Shown: positions 772 through 41,100 of the stretch, in pieces | Position numbering within the stretch: position 1 is the first letter of the stretch | Layout: each line of letters opens with the position of its first letter | Assembly: GCF_964204645.1 (NCBI RefSeq) | Contig: NC_134030.1 | Location: 6,818,278-6,882,277 of the forward strand | Length of the DNA: 64,000 nt | DNA from: Tubulanus polymorphus | Taxonomy: Eukaryota; Nemertea; Palaeonemertea; Tubulaniformes; Tubulanidae | Direction of reading: 5' to 3' | Made by a program: the position numbers and the translations under genes | The notes under the pieces: model-generated | Told to the model about the DNA's origin: nothing | Seen by the model: only the letters and a program-made list of their open reading frames with translations | Databases searched by the model: none

Positions 772-3700
772 GTGCTTTTGGCCGCGGCTGTTTGCAACAA
801 GGCTGGTAAAGGTAAGCAAAGCTGTAAAGAACTAACATCTATGCAACGATTTTTTGGTGGATTACTTGAACCACCAGATTTACCTAATGCTTGTTTAAAT
901 TATTTCTTGGTCTAAAAGACTGGGCGTTTGGACTGTTCGTGGCCATTTTATTTGAACGCCATGAAATGGACTTTAAAACTAATGTGTTATGTTTTCTTAT
1001 TTTAGCCATTGTGTCGCGACAATTTGTCGAGATGACCCGTTCGCGCATTGAAGGCTTGTTGGCGGCATTTCCAAAATTAATGAACACTGGTAAACAGCAT
1101 ACGTTCGTTGAAACTGAAAGCGTGCGCTACGTGTATCAACCGTTAGAGAAACTTTACGTGCTTTTGATCACGACGAAAGCTAGCAATATTCTCGAGGATC
1201 TAGAAACTCTTCGTCTATTTGCGCGTGTGGTGAGTAAATTTTAAAGATTTAATCAACAGGGTTTTTATAGGTCAGAGAATTCCGGTTTGATTTTTCCCTA
1301 CGAGGAAAATCAAGGAATTCTTGACAATCATAGAAAAGGGGTGCCACTTTTCGCCAGTTTTTCACCAGTAAAACAACTGCTAATACCTCAAATGCTCTGA
1401 CTTTTCTGAAAATCATAGAAAAGAGGTGCCACTTTTCACCAGTAAAACAACCGCTAATACCTCAAATGTTCTGACTTTTCTGAAAATCATAGAAAAGTCA
1501 GGGTATTTCACTTTTAGTGTCTTGTTGTTTTTGCTTGTGACAAGTGCATATGTTTGAAATTTAACCAGGGAACTTGATGGTCAGGGGTCAGTAAAATATC
1601 ACAGAATATTCTATTCCTGATCTGTAAGAACCCGAATAAAGGAATTCCAGAAATATATTAACATTTGATATTTTTCTGTTTATGACAGATTCCTGAATAT
1701 TCGCGTAATTTGGAAGAAAATGAGATCATCAATAACGCATTTTCTCTAATTTTCGCGTTCGACGAAATTGTAGCTCTCGGTTATCGCGAGAATGTTAATT
1801 TGGCGCAGATTCGAACATTCACAGAAATGGACTCCCACGAGGAAAAGGTTTTCCAGGCTGTACGACAGGTAAGAGCTGCTTGATTCAGGTGGTCGCACAA
1901 TGAATGCCTTTAACAGGTTGTTCCATAGAGCTAAGTAATGGCAAACAGTACTGGTGTCGGCTTTTGATGACAGGTATTAATTTGAAATAATTCTTACTAG
2001 ATGGTCTAACTGTTTCTTGTGTTACAACCAGCAAAAGTCAGATAATGTCGAAAGTAGAGAAGCGTACCTGGTATTGATGTACATTGTGTAAACGATAGGT
2101 GACACCATTGTCCACTACACTAGACTCCACTTGCCATGATGATGATGACCTATGGGCAGCACTCCTAATACTCCGGAATTAGCTTGGCTAATCAGTCTTA
2201 GCTATTTGGACCTACGTCACTTAGTTTGACCAGGCAATCCCCGGTTATAGTACATCTTACTCGCGCATGAAGATCTTAATTTGAGATTCTCATAATTCAT
2301 TCCATTAAGACGCAAGAACGTGAAGCGAAGGAGAACATGAAACGCCGCGCGAAGGAACTGCAACAACAACGCCGCGAAATACAGAAACGAGGCGGTAAAT
2401 CGGCAGTCGGTTACGGCGGAGGCTTCGGTAGTAGTTCGATGAGTGGCCGCGTTGGCGTCGATTCAGGCATTGTTGAAGTCACGATGCCAGACATTCCGAA
2501 ACAATCTTACACTTCAGCACCAAGGTAATTGTAAAAGTTTTAAGTGAACATTTTAAACTTAGAAATTCCTAAGATTTAATCAGGGAATTTGCGTAATCAC
2601 ATGCAAAAATCAAGGAATTGGTAAATGGGCGTAAAGTAGGCACCCTGTTATTTGCGTAATGATGTGAACAAAACTGTATGAATGATGTTTCGACCTATTT
2701 GTTTTAGCAAACCAAGTGGAACCAGCCGGGCTATGAAATTGGGTAGCAAAAGCAAAGATGTTGATATGTTTGTCGATCAACTGAAATCTGAAGGACAACG
2801 TTAGTATCTGAGTTGATAACTTACTGTTCTCTGTTGATATCAAATCTAATATTCGTTGGTCATTGTTTGAGCGAGTGGTGTGGGCGATTGGTTAGAGGGC
2901 TTGACTCTGGGATGCCAGGTAGTGAGTTCGAACCCTGTATATGACCGTCGTGTCCTCGGGCAATCCTCATTACCTCTCTCCACCCACCAGTATATGGGTA
3001 CTGGCCTGATAGATGACTCCTGTGCGCCTGGTAGTTGCTCGGATGTTGCTTCTCCCCAAGCAGTGATGACCGATGCTTGGAATAGAGTGATAGGCTGGGG
3101 GTAATAGTACGAATTTAGAGCGCATTTGAACTAGACGACTCTGCTTAGGACACCTGCATTATTATTTTGACTTTATCATTATTAATTTGTAGAGGTTACC
3201 AGTACTAACGCGAAACCAACAGCAGTACAGAAGATTTCTACTCCCGCTGTCAATCAAGAAAGGTGAGTGTTCGTCGGTGTTTTTGTGAAAAAAATACTTT
3301 TCACAATATAATATTAACGGTCAATATTTTGCCGATTCAGTGTACATTTGAGAATGGAAGAGAAGATATCGTTGACAGCCGGCCGCGATGGTGGCCTTCA
3401 GAATATGGAAGTTCATGGTCTAGTCATGTTGCGCATCAGCGATGATACATTCGGGCGAATTAAAATCGGCGTCATTAATAATGATACGAGAGGAATCCAG
3501 TTGCAGGTAGGTTTTTCACATTCGCGAAATAATGAAAGGCTTTAAATGCATGAGAACCTTGTGTGTCTGCTTCACGTTTTGCTAGTTCTAAACTTCGAAA
3601 CTTGACTATTTCTAAACTTAAGTTCTGACTTGCGTAGCTTTTTAGTCAGCATTATAGAATTTCATGCGTGCATATTTTCAGACACATCCCAATGTTGACA

Positions 3701-5212
3701 AAAAGCTTTTCCAAGCTCAATCGACGATTGCTTTGAAAAATCCATCCAAGCCGTTCCCCGTAAACCAAGACGTCGGTGTTTTAAAATGGCGATTCCAAAC
3801 ACAGGATGAAGCGAACATACCTTTGTCGAGTAAGATTATCAAATTGTGATTTATTAGGGTTCGTGGCAGTTAGTCCAAGTGGTCGATTCTAGACCTTGAA
3901 AAGCATGAGCTCTGGCCAATGGCAATAATGTTTACAATTTTCCTCGCTTGCCTACAAACAAAAGGTTTTTGAGCTATCACCCTCTCCCTGAGCTGGGAAG
4001 AAAATGTCTAGTCATGAACCATTTCATGTACTCTCAACAGAAACCTTTGAAAGCTCTTTTGTTGAAAACAATAACAATTTCGGTCAAATCATGAGTTAAT
4101 GTTCTGTAGGACGAAAAAGTAAAATTCACGAATTTTATCAGGTCCTGTTAGTCGCATGAACCCTGCTTCAGCCATTCGGTGTCAGAATTCTGCTGTCATA
4201 TTTTTTGCTGACCATTCGTTACATTTCTAATTTAGTTAATTGTTGGCCATCGGAAAATGGGCCAACTTGTGATGTAAATATCGAATACGAATTGGAAAAT
4301 GAAGACCTCGAATTGAACAATGTTGTTATTAGTATACCAGTGCCGTAAGTAGAGTCGCTGTGTCGCTTCAGATATATACGAAATCTAAGAAAATCGATCG
4401 CGTCAATTGGATTGTTAGTTTTGTATTTGACGCAGGTCTGGAGTCGGCGCTCCGGTTGTGAATGAATGCGAAGGTGAATACACGCATGACAGTCGTAAGA
4501 ATATCCTCGAATGGCACCTCGACGTTATCGACAGTTCGAATAAAAGCGGTAGCATGGAATTCAGCATCAACGGGCACCCGGACGACTTCTTCCCAGTGAA
4601 TGTAACGTTTTCATCTCAACGACCGTTCTGTGAATTAGAGGTGAGCCATCGTAGTCCTATTGTCGATGCGGTAAACCTTGTCTTGGTCTGCATTGCGCAT
4701 TACCCATTTGAATCTGTACTAAGCCATAACAGGGTCCCTACGACTCTTTGATTCCCTAAAAACTCCTTCTAAACAGAAATTGTTTTTAAAAGTGCTTGAA
4801 ACTTCTTTAATTTGAGCAAGATGCCCAAAACTCTTTCAATTTTGAGGCAATTAGAAATGTTTGTAGTTGCATGGTTGGCTACAACCTAAATTGATCGAGT
4901 TGGGACCAGGATGTTTTCTTTACCTTATTAGGCAGTTACCGAATTGGAATCCATGTTTAGTGGGATAAAGGATAAAAATTTGCTTAAAAAACCACTGAAT
5001 TACAGGTTTACTGAGATAAACAGTACCTATTTTGGAGGAGTTTACTGTAATTGGGATATATATAAAGTGATATAGAAATGGGAGTAGAATTAAAATGATG
5101 TTTCTTTGTATTCTATTTACAGCTAATGGATGTTAAAACAATCGATGACTCCTCACCCGTCAAATTCTCGAAGGAAATTCTATTCTACGTGGAAAAGTAC
5201 GAAATAGTTTAA
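772..5212 (+). CDS. ARCN1: Coatomer subunit delta (archain), 5' partial
   Basis: Delta subunit of the COPI coat, which carries cargo from Golgi to ER and within the Golgi. Eleven exons are visible: 772-811, 1006-1229, 1689-1868, 2310-2524, 2708-2799, 3193-3262, 3341-3506, 3682-3829, 4236-4344, 4436-4640 and 5123-5212. Together they give 1,539 bp, or 512 codons plus stop. The first visible residues [13 protein letters not shown] match the family from residue 2. The initiator Met is therefore in an earlier exon, and no ATG followed by a GT donor lies upstream, so exon 1 is probably outside the window. Order: N-terminal longin-like region ([17 protein letters not shown]), a charged coiled segment ([16 protein letters not shown]), a linker, then the C-terminal mu-homology domain ([40 protein letters not shown]) ending EKYEIV. 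With Met added the length is 513 residues, close to animal orthologues. Introns are short, and one carries a SINE. Confidence 0.95.
1322..1500. repeat. Tandem duplication in an ARCN1 intron
   Basis: Two imperfect direct copies (about 1322-1406 and 1407-1480) and the start of a third. Each contains ATCATAGAAAAG, GGTGCCACTTTT, CCAGTAAAACAAC and CTAATACCTCAAATG, and ends CTGACTTTTCT. No coding potential was seen. Confidence 0.75.
2870..3125 (+). mobile_element. tRNA-derived SINE
   Basis: The head resembles a tRNA with a degenerate RNA polymerase III A box (TGGGCGATTGGTTAGAGG, about 2881) and a B box (GAGTTCGAACCC, about 2925). A non-tRNA body follows (TCCTCGGGCAA, then TATATGGGTACTGG). This is the usual SINE layout in invertebrates. 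It sits in the intron between ARCN1 exons 2708-2799 and 3193-3262, in the sense direction. The 74-codon frame across it is not a gene. Confidence 0.8.
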
Positions 5213-25520: not shown

Positions 25521-28500
25521 ATGGAAAAGAAAGGCCAGCGGAAAACGGAATATTTCACTCGATTCTTTCGAGGCTGTTTCGGCACCAAGCAAAAAGATAA
25601 ATGCGGAAACAGACCAAATATCGAACGGAAATATTCAGACCAATTCGACAGATCTGTTTTAGCAACTCCGGTCATGGTTAGATTTTGTAAGTACTTAAAG
25701 ATGTCTGTTCATTCCTGTGAAGGTTAACTTCGATGTAACATTTTGATAGTGTGTCAAATCGATCTAAATCTCTCATATATTGAATGCCACAGTAATACGT
25801 TGAAATAGTTCATCGTAACCGCACTATGATAAAATCCGTAGAAGATGATCATCCAAAATGAAAAGTTTTTTACTAAAGATTTTTCAACCCTCCGTCATAT
25901 TCTCAAACAATCGAACTGTACGGAATATAATATAGATATTTTTTTATCAAATTCAATCACAGTTAATCTAAACAACACTTCGGATAAGACTGGTTCACTC
26001 ACGACATTGATGAAGAAATTACGGAGTCACCCGACCGATTGCGCTCTACATCTCGACGGTTGCAAGGCGCTCAACACTCTTACCAATTTAGGTTGGTGTT
26101 GTATTTACACTGTAAAAAAAAGTAGCGGACTAATTCCGTTTTTTTGTTACTCCAAATAGGTGATTAAACGCCCTATTTCCGTCATTATGAGGAATAAATC
26201 GCTTTAAAACTGAAATTTTGATTTTGAAACGGATAAAAATGATTGTCAACGTTGATTCCGTAATTTTCACGTTTATGACCGGATTTATTTTTTACAGTGT
26301 AGGCTATCACTATATGATTAATAGGAAAGTTGACAAAGCTTATCAATATTATGTCAACACCTTGCAGTTTTTTTAAACAAAAATACTAAAAGAACTGAGT
26401 TTCATATTAACAAGATTCTATTTTCCTATTGTAGACGACGTCACAATTCTTTTATTGCACAAGGAGATGATTGATTACATTTTGGAATCGATCAAAAGTT
26501 TCTCAACCAAGCCACATCTCATACAGCAAATATCTATAACGCTTCAACGAGTCGTGGAAACGTCAGGTTGAGACAATATAGATAGATATTCTTTTATTCA
26601 ATTCATTCTTGACGGCACGGTGATCGTAAGATTTATAATGCGTAACCCGCCCGTGAATTCTAACTAAAACGAAATTCCTGAAATTCGTTGCTAGAGTACG
26701 GCGTAACCAAAAGCACGCAGTTCCAAAAAAGAAATCACAAAAAAAGTTCCGGGGTAAAATATAATGATCACGACAGAAATGCGAGATTGAAAATTCTGAA
26801 AAGAGCACGGCCTCCGTTTATTTTAAATTTTGCTTATTTTGTTATTATCAATATTTGACTATACGTATTACGCAAGCACCTCTTTATCCTCATTTTGATT
26901 TGAGCACTTAGTATAGACTTCGATTGTAAAAAATCTTCGGTATGGCGATTTAACAATTTTGGTCATATCGGAGTACGACCACAACAACATACTTCTAAAT
27001 GCAATTCTGTACTGTTTAGTTACATTAATTTCTAACGATTTAGTGTGAACAAATTCAATTATGATATATCCTTTAATATTGTTGTTTCACAGCCGATGGT
27101 TGTAGGTATTTTGCGAAGATTGGAGGAATCGGGGTATTGTTCGACCTTATCAACGCGTTTATATCTGAAAATTTCATCGTGACGCAACTATCACAAATCA
27201 TTTCGACGATGACCAATGACGGTACGAATTCGCCGTATAGTTACGACAAATCTTCTCTCATAATAACGCGTGACATACGAAATATTGTTGCGGGCCAAAA
27301 TGAGAAAAAAACGAAATGTTTTTTAACACGAGGTTGAAACTATGGTAGATGATTCGGGCCACCATTAAAAGATATATGACATTCAAGTTCCACAAAAAAA
27401 TTTCCCCTTTTCGTTTTGACGCCAGTTAAAAACTGGCTTTAACGTGGCGTTAAATCGAAAATTGAAAATGTTAATAAGAAATTGGTGCAAATCGAGTGTC
27501 ATATCTCTTTTGATATGGCCCGAGTCAACCACCATATGAAACGGATTTTCGTGTTATGTAAGCATTTTGTTGTTAGAGATTGATTAACCAAAATAGGCAT
27601 CCCGCTGTATATACCCCCGAGACAAAGATTTTAATAACGTAATCGCTTAAAATAAATAGATGTCTATCGTTCTCCCGCAATTTTAGGAGGAGCTGCTATG
27701 CGAGTAGTGAGTGATGCCTACCACAAAGATATTTTGTGGTATCTACAAACAACTAAAACGAGAGATGGAGCCTCTGTTTATTTAACTTCGATATTGTCAA
27801 ATTGCGCTAGACTTGGTACGTAAGTACAATTTGTCGAACATAAAAGAAAGCAATTTCAGGAAATGTTGATTGATAAAGCTGCTGCAATACTTGTAACAAA
27901 AGCAAAACGACCCATCCATATAAAAGTCCGATTTTATGCATGTTTGATTTCACGTTTTAACCTTTTTCAAAGACGGAGCGCGAGCTGAACTCATCAAAGA
28001 TGGCGCTATTCACGCATTAGTCAAAACTTTACTTACGAATTCTAACGACGCGAGGGTGGCTCAGTACGCCATACAAGCGCTCGGTTATCTAGCAAATGAA
28101 GGTAATTCTCATCCCAGATGGAAATCGTTCTCGTCGATTTAAAATCTGTCTCTCAACCGCTAAAGATATGCATGATAATCATCATAATTAGCCAGCATTA
28201 TAGTGTACGTATTCCTTATAGATCGCCGCGGTTCAAAGGAGATCATAGTCGCTGGTTCTGTATTTGCGGTTGTAAAAACCTTGCGTACGTCGACCAGATG
28301 TAAATCCGTTCAAGAGAATGGGTGTAGCATGTTGGCTCAAGTATGCAAACATGGTAAGTATAAGCCGCGATCACACGGAGACGATTTTTGCCCGAGCCAA
28401 ATGGGCACAGTTCCGAGCCGAGTCAAATTTGGCCCCTGCCTAATTAGAGAGCGCGTTAACACGTTCACTTGATACTAAACGATGCTTACGCAAAGGGAAG

Positions 28501-31500
28501 TGAGTCACTTCCGGAACCATGCAGTTTTAATAAGTACGCAATAATAACCAGTGCTGAATTTTGGTCCGGACATGGTCCGACGTTTTTGGGCCGGGCAGAT
28601 AACGCTCGTGTGATCGCGGCTCTATAGTAAAGGTATGAATCGTCGCATTTTGTACATTTTGTATACGTCGATATTACACATCTTAAGTAAGTCCTTCTCA
28701 AGAAGAAGGGTTTATCGAATTTCTAAAAAAGATGAATTCATTTAGGTTCTGGTCGCCAGCAGCTGGCGAATTCCGGCGGGTTGGATACGGTACTCGAGGC
28801 GATGAAACGCTTTCCGGGCAATGAAACGATACAGCTTCAAGGCACGGCCATATTCATGTCTCTGTCGGAAAAAGGTACGAATTAAGAACAATCTGAATGA
28901 TAGAAATAGGTTTCACGCATTCCAAGGCCGATTCAATTAAATCATCCCTTTGTCGGACAGTCGTCGATTCCGTAGCCTATATATGCGAAGGCGTTGAGCT
29001 CGTTTGTTGTCTTACAGTGGTCTTTCTATTTTCAACGAATATACGTAGGTGCCGCATTATTTGTATTTGATCAATGTTCGGCTAAAAATGATACCTTGTT
29101 TCTCCTAACCGGCTGTCATTTTGTAAATCGTTATACAATTTGTATTCAGTTCATTTCTAGAGCTGCTGGGTCTGTTATGTATGGTGGCTGATAAGGGCCA
29201 AGGTTTTATTTCGTTTTGGCGTTCTGGCGTTCTGGCGTTCTGGCGTTCTGGCGCCCTTATTTGCATGCCAGGTATTTTATGTAATGGCCCGAATCAGCCA
29301 ACATAGTTATGGTTTACCTGATCATGATTTAAAGAAAAGTAATATACAGGGCATATAGGCGGCCGGTCGGGTCATCTTTTAAGTTCAGCAGAAAGGAGAA
29401 ACAAGGTATCATTTTTAGCCTTATCTTGAATGTTATACGATTAAGGGGAAATTCGCTCATTTTTTACACGTTCTTCTGTATTAAGATATATTCTGACTCG
29501 AATGACGACAGAGTACGTTACGTAGTTCAGTCGGTCTTTGTGATCTTCTCGGTTAGTGCTACGCATTTTATCAAGTCGCGACATCATTTTATCTAATTTT
29601 ATTTCTTTTTAAATGATTCGCAGAATTGGCGGAAGATTTGGCTAAGAGATCTGGGACGTCTATAATTACGGCAATGAAGAATCACCAACATAACGTTTAC
29701 ATCAACCAGTATGGCTGTAAAACTATTTGCAATATCATTCAGCAAACAGGTAGATATACAAGGTTAATGGTTGACTTTGAATCTATTCAATCCAAATGTC
29801 TTGCTATTTTTACTCGTTTGTCGGGACAAGTTAAGTATTTTAAAAATCGTAACGTACACGAACTTAAGTATTTTCGAAGTATTGTTTTCAGATACATTTT
29901 ACATTAAAGTCCAAACGAATTGACTAAAGTTTGATTTTTTCACCAGGCTATTCCGGCTACGAAACAGTCTTGAATGTCAATAATAAACGAAACGCCAAAG
30001 CGAACTTCATCCTTTTCCGATGAAGGCAACATGGGTTAGCGAAACATGTTAACATTATCATAGTATATATGTAAGATGTAGCAAAAAGGATACAAATTGT
30101 TCACCTGGCGTTTTGTTTATCACCAGGTTATTTAGTAGGATAGCGAGTTTATAGAATTGTCAGCTGAGATGCGCGATAATGACAAACATTTCATATGTAG
30201 TCTTACCGAGGACTTGTTACTTACAGGTGCAGTCCGCAGAATGATGATTGCAAATAATGGTGTCCTCACAATTATAGGAGCTATGGATACATTCCCCGAA
30301 GAACCAGACATTCAGTTCTACGGGTGTCAAATATTTTCAGTATTCGCCCGGGAAGGTAGTTGCCTATCAATTCTTCAGACATAGCTGCATATCTATCTTT
30401 TTTTCTCGCGCACTTATTGACGCTTGTCCAAGTTTCACTGACAAACAAGATTCTGATTATTCCTATACGTTTTCAATACCGGATGCGGAACTGAGACCAG
30501 TTTCATATACATTTGTTTTCAAAGGGATACAAAACGAAAAGCTAACTATATCTAATTCATAGAACCCAACCGATTAGACTCATGTATTTCCGTAATATAT
30601 GCGCCATCTTCGTTTATCATAGATGAATCAAGGCGAATTCTAATTCAAAACGGCGCCGGTCGTGCGACGATAAGCGCGCTATTGACTCTTGACGATCTTG
30701 ATAACATCCAACTAATCGGATGCCAAGTGCTCAACAGTATGATTACAAAATGTGAGTATATATTTATTGATTCTCGGACTTCCGTGAGACCCTTCTAATA
30801 CCGGTCTGTGTGTGTGCGGTCTGGCTTTCAGCTACTTAGCTTAGTTAATAGTCGGTCGATCTTGATGAAACTTGGCGGATACAATGATAATATGGGGGGT
30901 CGGGTTATGCAGTGTAAAAATGGGCCCAGTGCGCTACCTAGCGACAGAAATAGGTACTGAAAACCCTGTATTTCAGCGATATGACCTTGAAGATGACCTC
31001 ATTACTGAGGAACGGGTGGTCGAAATTCAAAAAGTTGTTTTCACTAAGTTCTGCTATTGGCCCTTACAATATATGAAAATGCACTGGGAACTAACAAAAT
31101 GATTTCGGAGTTTGAGTTTGAAGCAGAGCCATTGTCACCTATGGCTCGCTTCATCTCATAAACTCATGATCGTTTTCAAAGACCTATTGCGAAATGTTAC
31201 GGTCCAAAGAACCGAGAAAAATATGGGTATTAGAAACAACGAGAAAAACCGGAAATTAATCGAACCGCACATAAATTGCCCTATTTCCACAGCAAACGCT
31301 CATAAGGTTCAGATCGTCAACTCAGGAGGTATAATCGCATTACTGAATACGATTAGAAAACATGACAACGATAGAGAATTGGCATCCATTTGTTTGAAAG
31401 CTCTCAACAGTTTGATCGAAGTAGGTGAGTCTATTGGTTGACATATGATTCATGTGGATTGGTTTTGTAAATGTTGAGCTGACAATCGTGGTAATTTCAA

Positions 31501-34038
31501 GAAGTAAACCGAACCGAAAACTATGGTGGCTGATAAGGGCCAAATGCATTACTTTTTACACGACCTCGATCATAGAAAAATGCAAAACGAAACCAATAGA
31601 GCAAAAACGAAAATTTCGTTTTTGCTAGGCCGCAAAAACGAAATATTATAGAGCAAAAACGAAAATATTCGTTTTTGCTCTATGATTTTTCGTTTTGGCT
31701 CCATAATATTCGTTTTTGCACCCTAGCAAAAACGAAAAGTTCGTTTTTGCTCTATTAGTTTCGTTTTGTATTTTTCTATAATCGAGGTCGTGTGAAAATT
31801 ATTGTATATGGCCCTTATCAGCCACCATAGAAAACATATTCATTCCTCAACAAAGGTTTTCCTTGACACAATATCATTTAGAAATGAAAATAGAATCTAC
31901 TTTGAAAATAAATGTTATGGAAAATACAAATGTATTTCAGACGCAACTTGTTGGATATTGGTGCAAAATTCTGGCCACTGCACTATATTGGATAAATTTG
32001 GAAATAGTTCAGACAACGAGATCATCGTGTTCTCTTGTCGGATATTAGGTGAACTACTTTACATGGAAGGTCAGTAGATTAGAATCCATAGAATGTGAAC
32101 AATTAGCAAAGTATTCCTATTACATATTACGATTTACCTTTTCAGAGCTGGCTTCGGATACAAAGCTGCGTATAATTGGACACTTGAAACAGAAATATCT
32201 CGACTACTCGCAATCAGAAGACATAACCAAAATAGTCTGCCAAGGACTGGAGAATGTAATTACAAGTACGCACGAATTTCAAATAGAATCGCGATAAACA
32301 TATCAAATGTAATTCAGGCAATGTGAAAATCATTATTCGTTTTTCTCTAATTCATTCGTATCAGACATTCTTGTTATGTTTGATATATATGTACCCGTTA
32401 TAATATATGTCATGTATCCGTCAGCTTTGAGTTGATTAAGTTATGATATTCTTTACAAGGTGGTAGCCGTGAATTGTTTGACACCGTAGATGGTCTAAAA
32501 GTGATTAGCGACGCAGTTGCGAGGTTTCCCGATTCGGAGGATATTCATCAGAGTGTTTTCAATATCTTGGTTGATCTAGAACCGACGAAACCAGACGGTA
32601 TTCTTCATTTTGATTAAAAACCATAAATTGACGTCGAAGAGCTATCGTTATCAGCATAAAGTGTTATCTTGTTACAGAGGCAATGTTTTTGTCAATGCGA
32701 GCTCTTCCACTCGTTCTTCACGTGATGAGTAATTTCAAGCACAATGTAAACCTTCAAATTGTTTGCTGCGGTGCGTTTGAGCAAATTCTCGGTAAAGTCG
32801 GTACGTTTTGCAGATCGATTTGTTGATAGTAACCATTGATATCCTTGTTGCGACTATAATGTATTGAGAATCCCACAATCAAAATGAAAAGATAATATTA
32901 CAATATTAAATCCGAAAATGTCTCCTTGAGCTAGTAGTTAATTCTATTATTTCAGTATTCCTGAAGATGACTATGAGAATATAGAAATTTTGAATAAACT
33001 ACTAGCTCAATTTTGAAAAAGCAATGGAAAAACATGTTTCCAACTGAAAGACCGTTTTTTTTCGCATTGTGCAGTATTAGAAACAAAAAGGACATTGATT
33101 GTTTTTCTCTTGTTTCGCGCAACAGAAAACATCAATTAGTTGCATATCTTCGTACGTGTGTGCACGCCCGGCTTCGGAAAAAATCGAACATTGCCAGCTC
33201 TAACATTTCAATTCCAGAGCGAATATCTGTCAGTGGATGGTTGATGAGAGACATCGCCGGTGCTATCTTAGAAACTTTGAAGATGCACTGCAAGGATGTG
33301 CGAATACAAGTCGTAGGACTGCTATCACTTAAATATACCACTCGATACCGTAAGTGACATTGAACATTCTTAAAATGTCACTGCTCTTTGCTCTCACAAC
33401 TGGATGAAATGATTTGTAATAGCGTAATGTCTTGAAATAGGTCCAGTTCTCGAGAAATATCACAATCAGATGCTGGTTACTGTTCTTGCCGCTATGGAAC
33501 GATTCCCAGAAAACGCAGACGTCCAAACGACTGCCCTTGACCTGCTTCAAGATGTTATAGATAAAGGTAATTATGCCTTGGAGACATGCTATTAGAATTA
33601 GATCCCTGAGTCCGAGTTCATTACCTCAGAAGATAAGTCGTCTCTCAGTATTTGTACTTGTAGTTAGGGATGACAGTACTACTAGGGTACAGTCTACCGA
33701 CTTAACTATACATAATTGTGCTCACTCAGACCTACGAGCAATCCGTAGCTCAGACTTAAATAAGCCGCGATCGAGCATTTTTGCCCGGAATTGAACAACA
33801 GAACTGTTTACCAAAAACGTCAGAACAGACCCAATTTCAGCCCGGGTCGAAGTATTGTGTGATTGCGGCTATTTGTACCGGGGTTGATTTTTTCTTCTAT
33901 TTTTCTTCAGGACAAATCGTCCTCGAAACACAAAAAGGAATCCATTCGCTGATACAAGACGCGCTGCGACGACACCGTAGCGACCAAGGCATCGTAAAGA
34001 CCGGTCAATCGTTGACGCGTCTGTTGTCACTCACGTGA
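25521..34038 (+). CDS. Armadillo-repeat protein, one repeat per exon
   Basis: A protein of about 828 residues built almost wholly of armadillo repeats; it should form a right-handed superhelical scaffold. Nineteen exons: 25521-25686, 25963-26091, 26435-26566, 27093-27221, 27687-27815, 27973-28101, 28222-28353, 28746-28874, 29624-29749, 30227-30355, 30623-30751, 31293-31424, 31941-32069, 32146-32265, 32460-32597, 32678-32800, 33218-33349, 33441-33566 and 33911-34038. The total is 2,487 bp and every intron is phase 1. Exons 2-19 each encode about 40-46 residues, one ARM unit. Clear examples are GARAELIKDGAIHALVKTLL and GSGRQQLANSGGLDTVLEAM. Exon 1 (start ATG 25521) is basic and without a domain; this start is the least certain part. 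No signal peptide or membrane segment. I cannot name the orthologue; no kinase, ankyrin or F-box domain is present. Confidence 0.85.
27341..27536. mobile_element. TATGGTGGCTGATAAGGG-family element, copy A
   Basis: Begins TATGGTAGATGATTCGGGCC and ends GGCCCGAGTCAACCACCATA, an inverted pair. It is flanked on both sides by the 6-bp direct repeat TGAAAC (27335-27340 and 27537-27542). The interior is palindromic (CGTTTTGACGCCAGTT, then AACTGGC and GGCGTTAAATCG). No coding capacity. In an intron of the ARM-repeat gene. Confidence 0.85.
28363..28621. mobile_element. GCCGCGATCACACG-family MITE, full copy
   Basis: The terminal inverted repeats AGCCGCGATCACACG and CGTGTGATCGCGGCT are perfect 15-mers. 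The interior has GGCCCCTGCCTAATTAGAGA, a paired GTGAGTCACTTCC segment and CCGACGTTTTTGGGCCGGGC. It lies just after exon 28222-28353 of the ARM-repeat gene. Non-autonomous. Confidence 0.8.
29180..29305. mobile_element. TATGGTGGCTGATAAGGG-family element, copy B
   Basis: 126 bp beginning TATGGTGGCTGATAAGGGCC and ending GGCCCGAATCAGCCAACATA. The flanking 6-bp target duplication is GTTATG (29174-29179 and 29306-29311). The interior carries four tandem copies of GTTCTGGC after TTTCGTTTTGGC. Shortest member of the family here. Confidence 0.85.
31522..31829. mobile_element. TATGGTGGCTGATAAGGG-family element, copy C
   Basis: 308 bp with perfect ends (TATGGTGGCTGATAAGGGCC and its reverse complement) and the 6-bp target duplication GAAAAC (31516-31521 and 31830-31835). 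The two arms pair over most of their length: CGACCTCGATCATAGAAAAA on the left, and its counterpart around 31780. The centre is built from GCAAAAACGAAA / TTTCGTTTTTGC blocks. In an ARM-gene intron. Confidence 0.88.
32926..33017. repeat. Small foldback with TTGAGCTAGTAGTT ends
   Basis: TTGAGCTAGTAGTTAATTC pairs with ATAAACTACTAGCTCAA about 70 bp later. The loop contains TATTCCTGAAGATGACTATG, a motif also found in the foldback at 58078-58229. In an intron of the ARM-repeat gene. Confidence 0.55.
33763..33870. mobile_element. GCCGCGATCACACG-family MITE, deleted copy
   Basis: Begins AGCCGCGATCGAGCATTTTT and ends GTGTGATTGCGGCT, with only about 80 bp between. The middle retains AAAACGTCAGAACAGACCC. 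An internally deleted copy, 40 bp before the last ARM exon. Confidence 0.65.
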
Positions 34039-34079
34039 CCTCAGTGTCGTTGTGCCTCAATGAATAATGTATATTTAAG

Positions 34080-34216
34080 GACAATTTCCTGATGACGATG
34101 AAGATTGGGAATTTGTAAATGATGAGGGAGCTAATTCAGAAAAGGCGCCTTGTAGACGAAGCAATCGAACCAGACAATTTTGGACGTGGCTGGACAAGGG
34201 AACGGGGCGTCTTTAA
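34080..34216 (+). other. Possible alternative last exon of the ARM-repeat gene
   Basis: After an AG acceptor at 34078-34079 a frame opens in the same phase used by every ARM-gene exon. It runs 45 codons to a TAA at 34214. It encodes an acidic head (GQFPDDDEDWEFVNDEG), then a basic, tryptophan-containing tail (CRRSNRTRQFWTWLDKGTG). Joined to the phase-1 donor at 33566 it would replace the final ARM repeat with this tail. The 33911-34038 exon already ends in a stop, so the two would be alternative ends. Splicing is inferred; the pyrimidine tract is weak. Confidence 0.4.
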
Positions 34217-35178
34217 GCAATGCAGTTCTGATATTCAAGGGCCTTAAATATAGTGATTAGAATTATATACTTTACTGTATCAATAATAATGCATGCTCCA
34301 TCATCGCTTATGATTTCTCATTGTAATTGTGCATATTCCTCATATTATCCAAGGCCGTTGTTTATGTGCGCGTGCGTGTTGCGAAGGTTGAGATGTTACG
34401 GTGGTTATACTGGTTCTGTTTGGGATAGGTGATGGGTGTGACCATGGACATAAGTTTATACGTCCATGTGTGACTGATTGTCCGCGTGTCATTTGGCAAT
34501 CAATCCGTAAGATTTATGGTGGGCCAAGCTACATCTGAGCAACGCACCAATAGCCGCGATCACGCGGAGACGATTTGGCCCGGGCCAATTTGGCGCGAAT
34601 CAAGCCCAGTTCAAATTTGGCCCGTGTCTAATACGAAAGCGCGTTCACACGGAAACCACTTTTCGATACTAAACAATGCTTAAACAAAGCGAAGTGAGTC
34701 ATTTTCGGAACCAGTTTCAATTCAAACGCAATAATTTGACCCTAAAATTTGTGCTAAAATTTCTGGTCCGACGTTTTTGCTCGTGCCAAACAGACACGGG
34801 CCCATTTGGCACCCATGTGAATAGTTGTTCCGGTCCAAATTTGGCACAGGCCAAAAAAGCTCGTGTGATCGCGGAGCTATAGATTGACTTCAGTCGGAAT
34901 TTTCCGAGTGCAGTTACCAATGAAAGGTTCTTCGGAAAAATTGTTTTTCATTTATTCATGTTTACCCGATTAATAAAACTAGTAGCCGTTTAGTCATCGT
35001 ATTGTGTTGTTATTATTTCCTTCGCATTTGATGTCACGGAAACTGTGCAGCTGAGTCTGATGTCGTCGCTGATTGGTAGTTATACGAACTGTCTCGTGTT
35101 TCCGCATTCGGGTGTCGCAGTCTCTCTCAGCAGGAAATGTTGTCATTCTTCGACTGATGACTGTAAGAAACTTAAACG
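34217..35178. other. Intergenic region with a MITE
   Basis: Contains the 34552-34875 MITE copy and an AATAAA at 34972-34977 that could end ARM-gene transcripts. The remainder (about 35000-35178) would be the promoter and 5' leader of the secreted cysteine-rich gene. No other gene seen. Confidence 0.45.
34552..34875. mobile_element. GCCGCGATCACACG-family MITE, long copy
   Basis: Begins AGCCGCGATCACGCGGAGAC and ends CTCGTGTGATCGCGG. The interior has GGCCCGGGCCAATTTGGC, GAAGTGAGTCATTTTCGG and CCGACGTTTTTGCTCG, aligning with the 28363 copy. Non-autonomous. Confidence 0.75.
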
Positions 35179-38100
35179 ATGCAAACGATTCACGCAGCTG
35201 GAATTATTTTTATGGCTCCGTTGTTAGTGATATTTAATTTCATATTCGCAGTTTCGCTGGTAAGTGAAAGTTTTGTTTAACCGACAATAAGCGATACTTT
35301 TGAAATTCCGAAGATTATTTTTGGTGAACGTATATTTTATCGCATGCTCTTGGTTGTACTGGATTCATCTTTTAAAGAAACTCGATAAATACCGGTATAT
35401 CTATATAACGGCTGTTGCATTGTTTTAGGACGCAAATAAATACTCTACAATAATCATATATATACTTCGATAGTTCCACAACAACATCTAAAATCCTCTG
35501 CTCTTTGGGTCGTTGTTGATTAGCTTTTATAGATCGGGTGGACTAGGATGAGAAATACTCAGGCTCTTAGTCGCAAAATTTTCGGCTTAGCGGGGGCGTT
35601 GTCTTCGTATGGAATTTCAGACGGAGGTTGATTAAATTTTCAACGTGCGTCAATTTGCCGCCGCCAAAAAAAATCAATTAAAGTTCTAATTAAGGGGGTT
35701 CCGCTGCCACGATTCGACGTGTGGCGAATTGTTTTCTAATCAACAAAAACTCATTATCTCCCACTCACGACTTTACGCGTCAATTCTATTTATATCACCG
35801 GTAAACGTAAAATATTCGAATTAAATGTGAAAAGGGAGAGGCGTTATTTCAGCTATACTCACCAATCTCGTAAGAAGCAAGTTATTATTCTTTGACGCCG
35901 CAAAAGCCTTTAAAATAATGTTTATATACACTGATACCTAGTAGGCATTATTGGGGGTTCTGTGAGAGTCGATGTGCACTACGTCATCAATATAGGCGTT
36001 TCAAAATAACAAATATAAACTATGACTTTTGGCGATTGTTTTGTAGTTAGACATTTCATAACTCATATTTCATTTTGGATAAATTTCAATAATAATATTT
36101 GAGAGGATGTGCACTATGTCATCAATATATCGGGGCTAGACTGGTAGCCGGTCAATTCAATTGTCGATATACTCAAATCCAAATAACTTGATTGATGGTT
36201 ATCCTAGAGAATTTATTTTATGTTATTTATAGTCGACAATATAAAGCAATATATGTGTTATTTTTCAAGGTGTCAAAAAACTTTAAATTTAGTTTTCTTG
36301 TTATGTCCCTCAGTGAATAGTTTAGTCATGCGTTAGAGATTTTATTTTCATTTTTTTCGCATTCTGAAATGGTGGAAGCAAGCGAAATAAGGCCGCGCAT
36401 TCCTTTTACACAATATTTTCTTATCGTATTTTTGAAGCGTGAATCCCCGAAAGGCCAAACGTCATTTGCGAAATTAATCGCCGCCAAGCATTGCGTGGTA
36501 GTTTATATTCATCACGGATACAAACACCTGGTTATGTCAGCATTCTGAAATCATCGGTGAAATACCACACTTAGATACGTTAAACGTCTGTTATGTCATT
36601 ACAACAATCCTAGACCCACACTTAATTAACGATCGGTGATGCTCTAAGCGAAATATTAGCTGTTGCCTATGCTACTTCAAGGAGGAAAAACTACACCATA
36701 TTCACATCTCGGCAGCAATGAAAATCTATACGGTCCAGTTTTATCGACCGAGAAGAAAATCCACTCAAATCTGTCTTATAGAATTATGAATATTTTATGC
36801 TTATGCATTTATCGTGAAGTCGGTTTTTAAATTCAAATCTGTTCGCATTCGATGCAGATTGTATATGAATTAGACTTGCTTTTTGGTTTATTCGGGAATC
36901 ATTATGGACTCATGTCTTTGAACACAGACTTTGATTGACTTTGTCAATTAAAACGACCATGACAGGACATGCGCTTACGTAAATGTGTTTAATCTCCTGA
37001 CGGTTTCTATTACGTCAAGCTCCCGAAGAGAAAGATACACAGTAATATCCCATCATATGCCTTAATAAGGAACCAATAAATAACTTTAATTAGACTGTTC
37101 GACTGACGTCTATAGATTCTCAGAAGGGTGAGACCCAGTTGGGGCTCTAGATTAAAGGTTAACAATTTATCCTATCAATAAGATTAATAGTTATTCTTAT
37201 TTTGCCAATAAGTAAATTAGATTCCGGAGCCATCATCATATGATAACATATTCCAAACCCGACGTTGATCTTAACAGGAGTCAAAATGATAACCACGCAC
37301 GGCCAGTGAAGCAATCATTGGGAGCTCGTGCGACTTCAATTTCTAACTTCGCTTTTATAGAATCCATTTGTAGTTTAGCTGACCAGCGAGGTTTTCATTA
37401 ATGCTTATTCGTTAACGCATCTGGAATAGACGGAAATGATTATCGATATCATCGGTGAGAACTAAAATACCATGTAATCATCTCGGATTACCGCGCCGAT
37501 AAAATAAGAATACTAGTCTGCCCGCTTTAAGTTTAATAAATATCGGCCAAAATGGTTCAATAAGATTTTAGTTAGAGATGCGTATTGAATTATTCTTCAC
37601 CTATCCCGTCTTGTTGGCCGTTGGGGCTGACATCTTGAAATTTCTCTCTGTCTTCAGACATCCGTATCAAGGTGTTCCAATTCACGCCAGTCCATTCCAA
37701 TTTTTTTCTATATCTTCCTCTCCCTCTTTGTACGGTTCCCTGGTCTTGGCCAGTTCAGATGATCATTGAGTGTTAGATAGTTTTAATATACGTCGTAGGT
37801 TTTTCGATTCAATTTTTGAATTGCGCTTTTGATGTTGTACGGTGTCGAGTAACGTTGACACGTGGGGCGCGGTGCGTTGCGAGTCTTTGTAAAAAAAACC
37901 ACTATACAATTCATAATCTCATCTCGAGTGTAAACTTAACATTTGATATCTCATAAAGCCTTGTTTGCGCGCGCACGCGGAGCTATGATTGTGCTTATCT
38001 GATCGTTCCAGTGTCAAGCTAGTTCACTGGGTTCCTTTAAACCACACAGCATTCTCGAAAATATTAATAAGTTAGCAAACTTCATGAAAAAATCTATGAC

Positions 38101-41100
38101 AGACATGAATTTTATGAATAATGATTTGCCTTTCCTCAGGTGGATGCATTTCCGATTTCAAGCTACTCAGATTATAAAACATGGCCACTACCCGGAGGTA
38201 AGTATACTTTCATCTTGCCTTCGTCAGGATCTTCGTTAGAACGGACGATTGTTCATTCATCGCTTATTACGAAATTTCCGAAACTATGCAGCTTCGTTCT
38301 TTAGGTAATTCTATCGGTTTGTAGTCATGATATCACTAGCAACGTCGATTAACAAAATGAAAGATTCTAAATCATTAATCAGAAAATCCGTTGAATGGCG
38401 TATACGGATACTACTTTTTGTGAAGAGAAATTTTAGTCGCGATTCACCAGAAACGATAGCATCAGATGCTTTCATTTTCTACGAAGATAGAAAGAAAAAA
38501 CTTTTTATTGTTAGTTCCTTCGAAAGGGAATTTCTTGAATCACAAATGATGACTAATATGGTCTTAACGTGGGCGGCTTGGGGACATTAGTGATATTTCC
38601 AAGATTATAAACATGTATGAAGATCCTGATGAGTTATAAACAGCTTAGTTTGTGTAGCCTTAAGGTTATCTAATTGTTTTGTAGTCTGATGATAAAACAA
38701 TTAGACATGTCTATATGTCTATGATGATATCACAAGAATTATCTTTCTCTGAACATTTGTAATTTAGAAAGATCTAGGTAGATAAGATCATTTTATTGTC
38801 CACAGAAATATTTGCAAAAAACTGGTTCAATGGTTTAGTGCGTGATATCAATGTCAATGTTGTAAGTGACAAGAGATTTAACAGCCGCGGAAGCGAACAT
38901 CTTTTAAAGTTCAGTTCATCTACGTTAAGTTTCCGTCCAAAAGACGTAACAACATGACTTGTTCTGATTTATTAATTGGCTTATCTACTGTATAGAAATG
39001 AAGTTCATAATTGGTGTTTCATTTGTGTTCAGGTTCGTTTATCTACGAGGATGACAGCGGTTGTCGGTGTTACTCGCAGTACTGGACCAATGAACCATTA
39101 GCGAAATGTATCGTTGAATACGGCAGAAACCCTTGCGAATCGGCGCAGCTTGTTCCGTACAGACATGTTGCCAAGAGGGGACGCAGATACTGTAAGTACC
39201 CACCGCCAAGTGCGGTAGCTAATGCGATTTAGGTAAAGTGAACCCATATATTCTAGAAACGGGTATCCTTGTGATGCATGAAGTGGATGTCGCCCAAAAA
39301 TGCAGTAAAAATGTATCACAAAAAACTAAACTCTTGATAATCAACGAACATATATGAAATGAATCATGATGGTCAGTATCATTCGTTTCTATAGAAACTG
39401 AATTGATTTTATCTTTAAGTATTTCCCCACTTGTTTTTTTGAGTGATTGATTAATTTTTGATTTGATTTGAGTTTAGTTTAGTTACCTCACAAACCTACC
39501 ATCACCTGCCGGGAACAAAACAGGGGACATTTGAAATTGGAGACCGAAGTAGCAGAAATGTTGTATGATCGCCGCTCAAACTTACAGAATCTTTTGTTTT
39601 AATCGAAGTACAAGAAGCAAATTTTTGTTCCGGTTCATTATCATAATCTTTCAACCAGTCTGAACCGGCAAGCGGCTAACCCCAGAAATCCGATCTGCTA
39701 CCACGATGAGAGCTAAAGTAGCCATTAGCCATATTCGGTTTTCTAAATAATTAAGTTTATAGTGGATTGTCTGTCAGTGCTTACACCATTATCTCATTAG
39801 GGCCCCACTGTTTATTACATCGAGCACAACCTTTCCTTCAAGCGACGTTCATAAGAAGAAATATCAAAAGGTTCTCGCTAAAACTAGGCATCAGATGTGT
39901 ATGGTGGCTTATAAGGGCCATAGCGTAAAATTCCTGGTATGTAAATGAGGGCGCCAGAACGCCAGAACGCCAAAACGAAAAAAAACGTCCAATTTTCTCT
40001 AAAAGTTCGTTTTGGCGCGCCAAAACAACGAATATTCCGTTTTGGCGCCCCCGCCAAAACGAACTTTCGTTTTGGCGCCCCCGCCAAAACAACGAAAAAC
40101 GTCCAATTTTCTCTGAAAGTTCGTTTTGGCGCGCCAAAACAACGAATTTTCCGTTTTGGCGCCCCCGCCAAAACAACGAAAAACGTCCGATTTTCTCTGA
40201 AAGTTCGTTTTGGCGCGCCAAAACATCGAATTTTCCGTTTTGGCGCCCCTGCCAAAACGAACTTTAAACCACGTAAAATAATTCTATATATACGTTAAAT
40301 ATTTTCATATATGCAAATTTATGCAAATTACACACAAGATCAACGCGCCAAATTGAAAAACAATTTTACTGTGGTTGAATGCTTGTTTTGGCGGGGGCGC
40401 CAAAACGGAAATAACCGCGCCAAAAAGAAATTTTCTTTGGTTTTGGCGCGCCAAAACGAACTTTTAGAGAAATTTCGACGTTTTTCGTTGTTTTGGCGGG
40501 GGCGCCAAAATGAAAGTTCGTTTTGGTGGGGGCGCCAAAACGGAATATTCGTTGTTTTGGCGCGCCAAAACGAACTTTTAGAGAAAATTGGACGTTTTTC
40601 GTTGTTTTGGCGGGGGCGCCAAAACGGAATATTCTCCGTTTTGGCGCGCCAAAACGAACTTTTAGAGAAATTTCGACGTTTTTCGTTGTTTTGGCGGGGG
40701 CGCCAAAATGGAATTTTCTTTGTTTTGGCGCGCCAAAACGAACTTTCAGAGAAAATTGGACGTTTTTTTTCGTTTTGGCGTTCTGGCGCCCTCATTTACA
40801 CACCAGGAATTTTACGCTATGGCCCTTATCAGCCACCATAGATGTGAATAGTTGTACCAATAAAACATGGAAAAAATGTCACATTGGACGCTGCGATTCA
40901 ACTAGTAACGCAGTTTCTTTATCGGTGAAAAAGCTAAATGTCAGCGTGTTAGTTTGTTCATCACTTAAACAGCCTTTTTACCATGTTATTTAAATATATT
41001 CGATGCAACGCTTATTGATCAAAGTGACCAAGGTCAAAGAAAGCGTTCGTTCATTTCTTAAGTGACACTTACGAATAAGCTCTCAAGTCTCGTCGACAAG

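Follow-up and report, generated by a model that had tools for sequence, protein, structure and literature searches.

Four short elements in a Tubulanus polymorphus window as probable non-autonomous IS3EU transposons, with rapidly changing subterminal palindrome arrays

Within a 64,000-nucleotide stretch of the Tubulanus polymorphus genome (hereafter the window; contig C6, positions 6818278-6882277), four short elements with shared inverted ends are, with a probability of roughly 90%, non-autonomous elements of IS3EU, a known superfamily of cut-and-paste DNA transposons; the eukaryotic genome in which they reside is intron-bearing. We assign them to IS3EU because their ends, the 6-bp target site duplications (TSDs) beside them, and the transposase encoded by longer copies all fit that superfamily. 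Common ends, 6-bp TSDs, transposase genes between intact ends, and turnover of the palindrome arrays just inside the ends were each established directly.

A sequence-only reading of the window had described the coordinates, the shared inverted ends and four perfect 6-bp flanking duplications, all of which were confirmed here. Element 1 (27341..27536, 196 bp) is an imperfect inverted repeat over its full length, has ends of GATTCGGGCC type, and is flanked by TGAAAC at 27335..27340 and 27537-27542. Element 2 (29180..29305, 126 bp) lies between copies of GTTATG (29174..29179 and 29306-29311) and contains a tandem repeat of GTTCTGGC with an 8-bp period at 29212-29253. Element 3 (31522..31829, 308 bp; GAAAAC at 31516..31521 and 31830-31835) has conserved ends of ∼110 bp around a variable centre of GCAAAAACGAA and TTCGTTTTTGC words. 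Element 4 (39900..40840, 941 bp; GATGTG at 39894..39899 and 40841-40846) consists of a left end with a palindromic array of GTTTTGGCGCGCCAAAAC type (39900..40265), a conserved core of 112 bp (40266..40377), and a right array with its end (40378..40840), the ends and the arrays being of the type found in L031, a gene-carrying copy described below. The termini of these non-autonomous elements read TATGG..CCATA, except that element 2 has TATGT on the right. Self-inverted alignments spanning the whole length (70.5% for element 1, 85.2% for element 3, and 74.6% for element 4), together with the 8-bp tandem repeat of element 2, bore out the palindromic or tandem make-up claimed for the interiors; the inverted repeat of element 2 is limited to its 21-bp ends. 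With up to three mismatches allowed, the 20-bp end pattern TATGGTGGCTGATAAGGGCC matches six sites in the window, where 100 shuffles predict 0.00, and the ends of element 1, which carry four mismatches each, fall outside these six.

The same ends recur throughout the genome (267.8 Mb in 77 contigs). With up to three mismatches, the 20-bp end was found 735 times in forward and 734 times in reverse orientation (reversed-pattern control, 20 and 15), and the variant in which GATTCGGGCC replaces GATAAGGGCC gave 150 and 164 exact matches (control, 0 and 0). From the fetched loci we compiled 61 non-redundant candidate end pairs whose ends start with TATG or TACG and have at most six mismatches, with lengths above 60 bp and below 12 kb and at least 10 bases of flank. 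An exact 6-bp TSD was present in 28 of the 61, and one with a single mismatch in nine more, compared with a chance rate of 1.4% exact TSDs per pair when flanks were shuffled. In all 28 exact pairs the longest duplication was precisely 6 bp. One candidate, an 8.8-kb element at L033 (C2:10777575-10786367), was rejected because its outer ends lack a TSD; the locus holds a pair of shorter elements, whose TSDs are exact in one case and agree at five of six positions in the other. At two further loci, L042 (85-120) and L043 (617-652), the outermost 16 bp of the end (TATGGTGGCTGATAAG) are tandemly duplicated; the TSD of L042 sits outside the outer copy, and none was seen at L043.

A search for an autonomous copy carrying a transposase between the same ends had been suggested, and such copies were found in two lineages. 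The first comprises six near-identical gene-carrying copies, five of them complete at 8.8–9.9 kb: L031 (9888 bp, exact TSD AATATG), L032 (8831 bp, exact TSD TAAAAC), and complete copies with exact 6-bp TSDs on C7 (9165 bp), C8 (9659 bp), and C10 (9741 bp), the last with the simple duplication ATATAT. L031 and L032 are 99.5% identical over a 7228-bp alignment that includes part of the right array. The L032 interior, used as a genome query with 40 of 1882 candidates scored, returned four further copies at a rounded 100% (C4, C7, C8, and C10) as well as partial or older copies at 91–99%. On C12 (6502737-6553207), positions 778-5121 of this query are present three times, ∼23 kb apart, which suggests a tandem duplication of a transposon-bearing segment.

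Nine predicted exons on the plus strand of L031, joined in frame, give an open frame of 372 amino acids with a provisional start in its first exon. The spliced protein matches the Pfam rva_4 integrase core (1.1e-38) with a catalytic spacing of D-58-D-36-E, and its matches to IS481 (1.1e-6) and IS3 (2.5e-4) are significant yet below the NCBIfam cut-offs; a comparison with PDB sequences gave no matches. On the minus strand, opposite to the transposase, lies an open frame of 632 amino acids (5297-7195 in L031, 4676-6574 in L032) whose C-terminal part (residues 541-618) matches HECT at 7.9e-9. Judged from this domain match, the frame is possibly a ubiquitin-ligase accessory gene. In this lineage the spliced protein was scanned in Pfam together with four frames of L032 and the HECT frame of L031, and the integrase core, HECT, and sub-threshold matches were all that came back.

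Relatives of the transposase occur at several genome sites, with 54–73% identity per listed piece, and the upstream flanks of three of them were searched for the end; two of these flanks contain the terminal 20 bp, altered at one or two positions. A second lineage is represented by L113, an element of 7353 bp read at its two ends. Its TSD, GGATTG, is exact, and each end has an array of TG type, the two being inverted relative to each other. Three listed pieces of its transposase are 60–67% identical to the first-lineage protein. TATGG..CCATA termini are present in both long lineages, so that the same ends occur on two long elements whose transposases differ. A more distant, intronless relative of 401 amino acids (L111) is 41% identical to the L031 transposase and matches rva_4 (1.3e-34), HTH_21 (7.1e-10), and, below the cut-off, IS3 (1.8e-7); the 5 kb fetched there held no TA(C/T)GG..CC(A/G)TA pair longer than 1300 bp with a 6-bp TSD. 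Single-sequence structure predictions for this relative and for the HECT protein had mean predicted local distance difference test values of 35.2 and 34.3, respectively, and were not used.

Elements of the IS3EU superfamily have TA..TA ends and usually 6-bp TSDs, and no HHCC motif precedes their catalytic core (PMC10045372); those of rust fungi end in TAYGG..CCRTA and carry an alpha-kinase as a second gene, opposite to the transposase (PMC12730594). The elements described here agree with the accessible parts of these accounts, and with what defines IS3EU / GingerRoot, in their 6-bp TSDs (exact in 28 of the 61 pairs, and GGATTG at L113), in termini of TATGG..CCATA that fit both TA..TA and TAYGG..CCRTA, in an IS3/IS481-related DDE transposase, and in the opposite orientation of the second gene. 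The guess of IS3EU, originally drawn from duplication length, gains support from transposase-bearing copies between the same ends. Unlike the TET-carrying fungal IS3EU elements, for which an alpha-kinase and a TET/JBP gene are described, the second gene here has a HECT domain; also unlike IS3EU as described in those portions, which mention neither feature, the ends carry arrays of 144-bp palindromic units with a GTTTT-NN-CG half-site. Our literature search found no report of IS3EU with HECT or with subterminal arrays, although Repbase entries may record such elements, and none that combines HECT with a DNA transposon.

That these elements belong instead to another superfamily (Dada or Polinton) or to the Foldback/Galileo group, with the rva_4 gene as a passenger or a neighbor, seems very unlikely. 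TSD length by itself cannot discriminate here, Polintons having 6-bp TSDs as well. Polinton/Maverick elements carry DNA polymerase B and virus-like genes, none of which appeared in the Pfam-scanned frames, with most small frames outside the scan, and no Dada transposase was seen among the scanned L032 and L031 frames and the spliced protein, no Dada model having been sought. The first-lineage scans, which returned only integrase core, HECT, and sub-threshold matches, speak against such a placement, and so does the fact that two distinct long elements, each bounded by an exact TSD, enclose an rva_4-type gene. Termini of TA..TA and TAYGG..CCRTA are, moreover, those reported for IS3EU (PMC10045372, PMC12730594). 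Long, internally repeated inverted ends do recall Foldback and Galileo, but Galileo belongs to the P superfamily and makes 7-bp duplications (PMC3573991, in the part available). With 6-bp TSDs and an rva_4 transposase, a Foldback/Galileo identity was rejected.

The interiors of the four elements, which were said not to align, proved to have relatives in every case. Element 2 aligns with L031 over 124 of its 126 bp: its positions 49-126 correspond to the terminal 78 bp of L031 (86%), and positions 24-58 to the edge of the L031 array. Element 4 aligns over 831 of 941 bp, the uncovered 110 bp being part of its core; because that core is absent from L031, element 4 is not a simple L031 deletion. 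The core recurs at 94.6–96.4% in L034, L035, L037, L038, and L041, and over at least 60 bp in six further elements, and the arms around it in element 4 and the five sharers range from 242 to 918 bp. Element 3 shares with L031 only the terminal 21–23 bp and one array stretch, and element 1 gave no alignment. As genome queries, element 1 returned 25 matches including itself (74–81%, nearly all on its right half, the left half also resembling L061 by eye) and element 2 returned 43 including itself, mostly on the right half (40 of 295 candidates scored). Counting self-matches and both strands, there were 182 matching pieces for element 3, some of them full-length (40 of 98 candidates scored), and 211 for element 4 (40 of 390). 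Element 3 and six fetched relatives have conserved ends of ∼110 bp and a variable centre. In an all-against-all comparison of 37 elements, 27 formed one cluster that includes elements 2 and 4, seven formed the element-3 cluster, and element 1 and two others remained unclustered. Elements 2 and 4 are thus miniature inverted-repeat transposable elements relative to L031, in the sense of short, non-coding sequences whose ends match those of an autonomous element present alongside them in the genome; elements 1 and 3 qualify by their terminal 20 bp and array type only. Among the element 1 matches, 14 of the 25 fall within 120 kb on C9 (2585366-2706035), several of them paired ∼50.9 kb apart, a pattern that looks like segmental duplication.

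Tandem palindromes lie directly inside the ends. The L031 unit is 144 bp long and pairs CGTTTTGGCG with CGCCAAAAC. Six young copies contain four to eight units on the left and six to ten on the right, with two common unit types, A (29 units) and B (21 units), in varying order. Because the number of units varies between 4 and 10 despite ∼99.5% identity, it shifts much faster than the bases do. This change is observed; recombination, slippage, or gap repair among the inverted and tandem units would account for their gain and loss.

These data bear on the proposal that every transposition event builds a new interior through hairpin-primed replication or aberrant repair, with the ends carrying fresh palindromic cargo. 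The differing number and order of palindrome units between nearly identical copies, and the variable centre of the element-3 family, would suit it. Nevertheless, it is very improbable and is largely refuted by the conserved cores: the 112-bp core is retained in five other elements whatever the length of their arms, the gene-carrying interior is ∼99.5–100% identical among young copies, most array units belong to the pre-existing types A and B, and all four interiors have relatives. As first worded, therefore, the claim of de novo cargo fails, given the fixed core of element 4 and the ∼110-bp ends that element 3 shares with six relatives. A weaker form of it stands, in that the arrays lying between the fixed ends and the core quickly change length and order and the element-3 centre varies. 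Copies with a conserved interior elsewhere in the genome had been named in advance as the finding that would overturn the claim; element 4 has them, and element 3 has them in part.

Gene-carrying copies are organized in three layers, with a constant stretch of ∼20 bp at the tip, palindrome arrays mostly built on a GTTTT-NN-CG half-site inside it, and the genes innermost; the short elements retain the ends, in most cases also the arrays, and lack the genes. Under the IS3EU assignment, the DDE transposase from gene-carrying copies would recognize the shared ends and excise the element, and reinsertion with a 6-bp staggered cut would leave the duplications that we observe. The short elements may be mobilized in trans by the same enzyme.

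Several observations weigh against this account. No TSD within one mismatch was seen in 24 of the 61 candidate pairs, some of which are nested or mispaired ends, and the superfamily was assigned from published descriptions. The transposase gene model is a prediction in which exon 2 has two possible donors, one of them in frame. Exon 5 of L032 has a private stop codon, found neither in L031 nor in the older copies aligned there, and L032 may therefore be dead; within the fetched sequence, the right end of the C4 copy is missing. The third relative locus, L114, has an array, but a search for an intact end there came up empty. Among the gene-carrying copies found, none matches element 1 or element 3 across ends of ∼100 bp, and the tie of element 3 to the TG lineage rests on a 75–77% similarity between its array words and the L113 array. 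In the element-3 family, GTTTTNNCG, the predominant array word elsewhere, occurs at 13 of 89 GTTTT sites, and GTTTTTGC at 48.

Across 37 elements and three array stretches, with the gene cores of three long elements cut out, GTTTTNNCG was found at 675 of 965 GTTTT sites; the corresponding figures are 8 of 266 for the part of the window beyond the region and 1 of 36 for the core of L031. A single lineage supplies the majority of the 40 rows in this site table, so the shared GG letters reflect descent and are not independent. The half-site is mostly GTTTT-NN-CG, and NN agrees more within an element (mean 0.88) than between elements (0.58; 28 elements with at least four sites each). L031 and its relatives have GG as NN; the letters are TG in L113 (34 sites in the left array and 30 in the right), AT or AA in L114 and the 674-bp element of L033, GT in the 3703-bp element of L033, and CT in L076. 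The full palindrome CGTTTTNNCGCGNNAAAACG has 151 matches per strand (control, 0), and the 100 of these 302 matches that were listed are all of the GG form.

We consider the arrays to be probably extra transposase-binding sites, which could either aid or limit movement. It is possible, though less probable, that they have no role in transposition and are selfish tandem repeats, or hairpins with an effect on silencing or replication, carried by chance. Minisatellites typically vary fast in copy number. Also in favor of this reading, element 2 and L077 (143 bp) have exact TSDs with a single GTTTTNNCG site each, and L049 and L102 have no such site at all. Set against this, transposase lineages diverged to 54–73% retain the GTTTT-NN-CG frame inside the end, with an NN that is lineage-specific and the same at both ends of one element, as in L113. 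A further reading, which we regard as rather unlikely, is that the arrays form a two-letter address, in which common ends and a GTTTT-NN-CG frame are combined with an NN that is homogenized along both arrays and co-evolves with the transposase of the lineage. If so, it would be the array, rather than the ends, that distinguishes sister transposases and their parasitic short copies. The element-3 family count (13/89) weakens this reading, and a strict code also fits poorly with L112, where NN is mixed (TG 7, AG 4, GG 4), with the absence of GTTTT-NN-CG sites from L049 and L102, and with the single site in element 1.

A structural parallel is Galileo/Foldback of Drosophila, which, in the portion of the account available, likewise has long terminal inverted repeats (TIRs), internal tandem repeats that change size independently at each end, and deletion derivatives made of two TIRs, and differs in its unrelated transposase and 7-bp duplications (PMC3573991). 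Its authors proposed the TIR tandem repeats as extra transposase-binding sites (PMC3573991). The present elements show such a Galileo-like end structure in a different superfamily, IS3EU, where several lineages have it, each with letters of its own. PiggyBac has palindromes inside the end that are bound by transposase domains, and the subterminal sites of piggyBat restrict activity, so subterminal sites can inhibit; both differ from our elements in having few palindromes, not long arrays, as far as the consulted text of that report describes (PMC11707139). Styx of Zymoseptoria, related to IS3EU, similarly has an IS3EU-type transposase, length variants, and 6-bp TSDs (there used as a search criterion), and differs in its 36-bp TIRs and other accessory genes, with arrays not mentioned in the part of the source available (PMC10853768).

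IS3EU is a minor, little-studied superfamily, and the transposase of piggyBac and piggyBat is unrelated to the IS3EU-type one. Present together in this genome are gene-carrying copies of very recent origin, multiple lineages, and short derivatives whose ends number in the hundreds, and the end arrays change within a short time. The growth and shrinkage of foldback-type ends thereby becomes testable, as does the question of how related transposases within one genome stay separate.

Elements 1–4 are packed into 13.5 kb (27341-40840); genome-wide, with 735 forward matches over 267.8 Mb, the end pattern averages a pair every 360 kb or so. In a clustering test based on 100 exact ends among the matches listed, on C1 and C2, merged to 77 elements, eight neighboring pairs were spaced at 20 kb or less (p = 0.004 vs. 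random placement). This clustering could possibly reflect local insertion; Styx copies also cluster, ∼51% lying within 150 kb of another according to the available part of that report (PMC10853768). Across the window, Rfam at gathering thresholds gave no matches, and one frame of the gene-like region described next gave a sub-threshold Pfam match only. On the plus strand at ∼26377-33600, short open reading frames with repeated helical, armadillo-like wording read by eye as exons of one gene, and elements 1–3 apparently lie within its introns.

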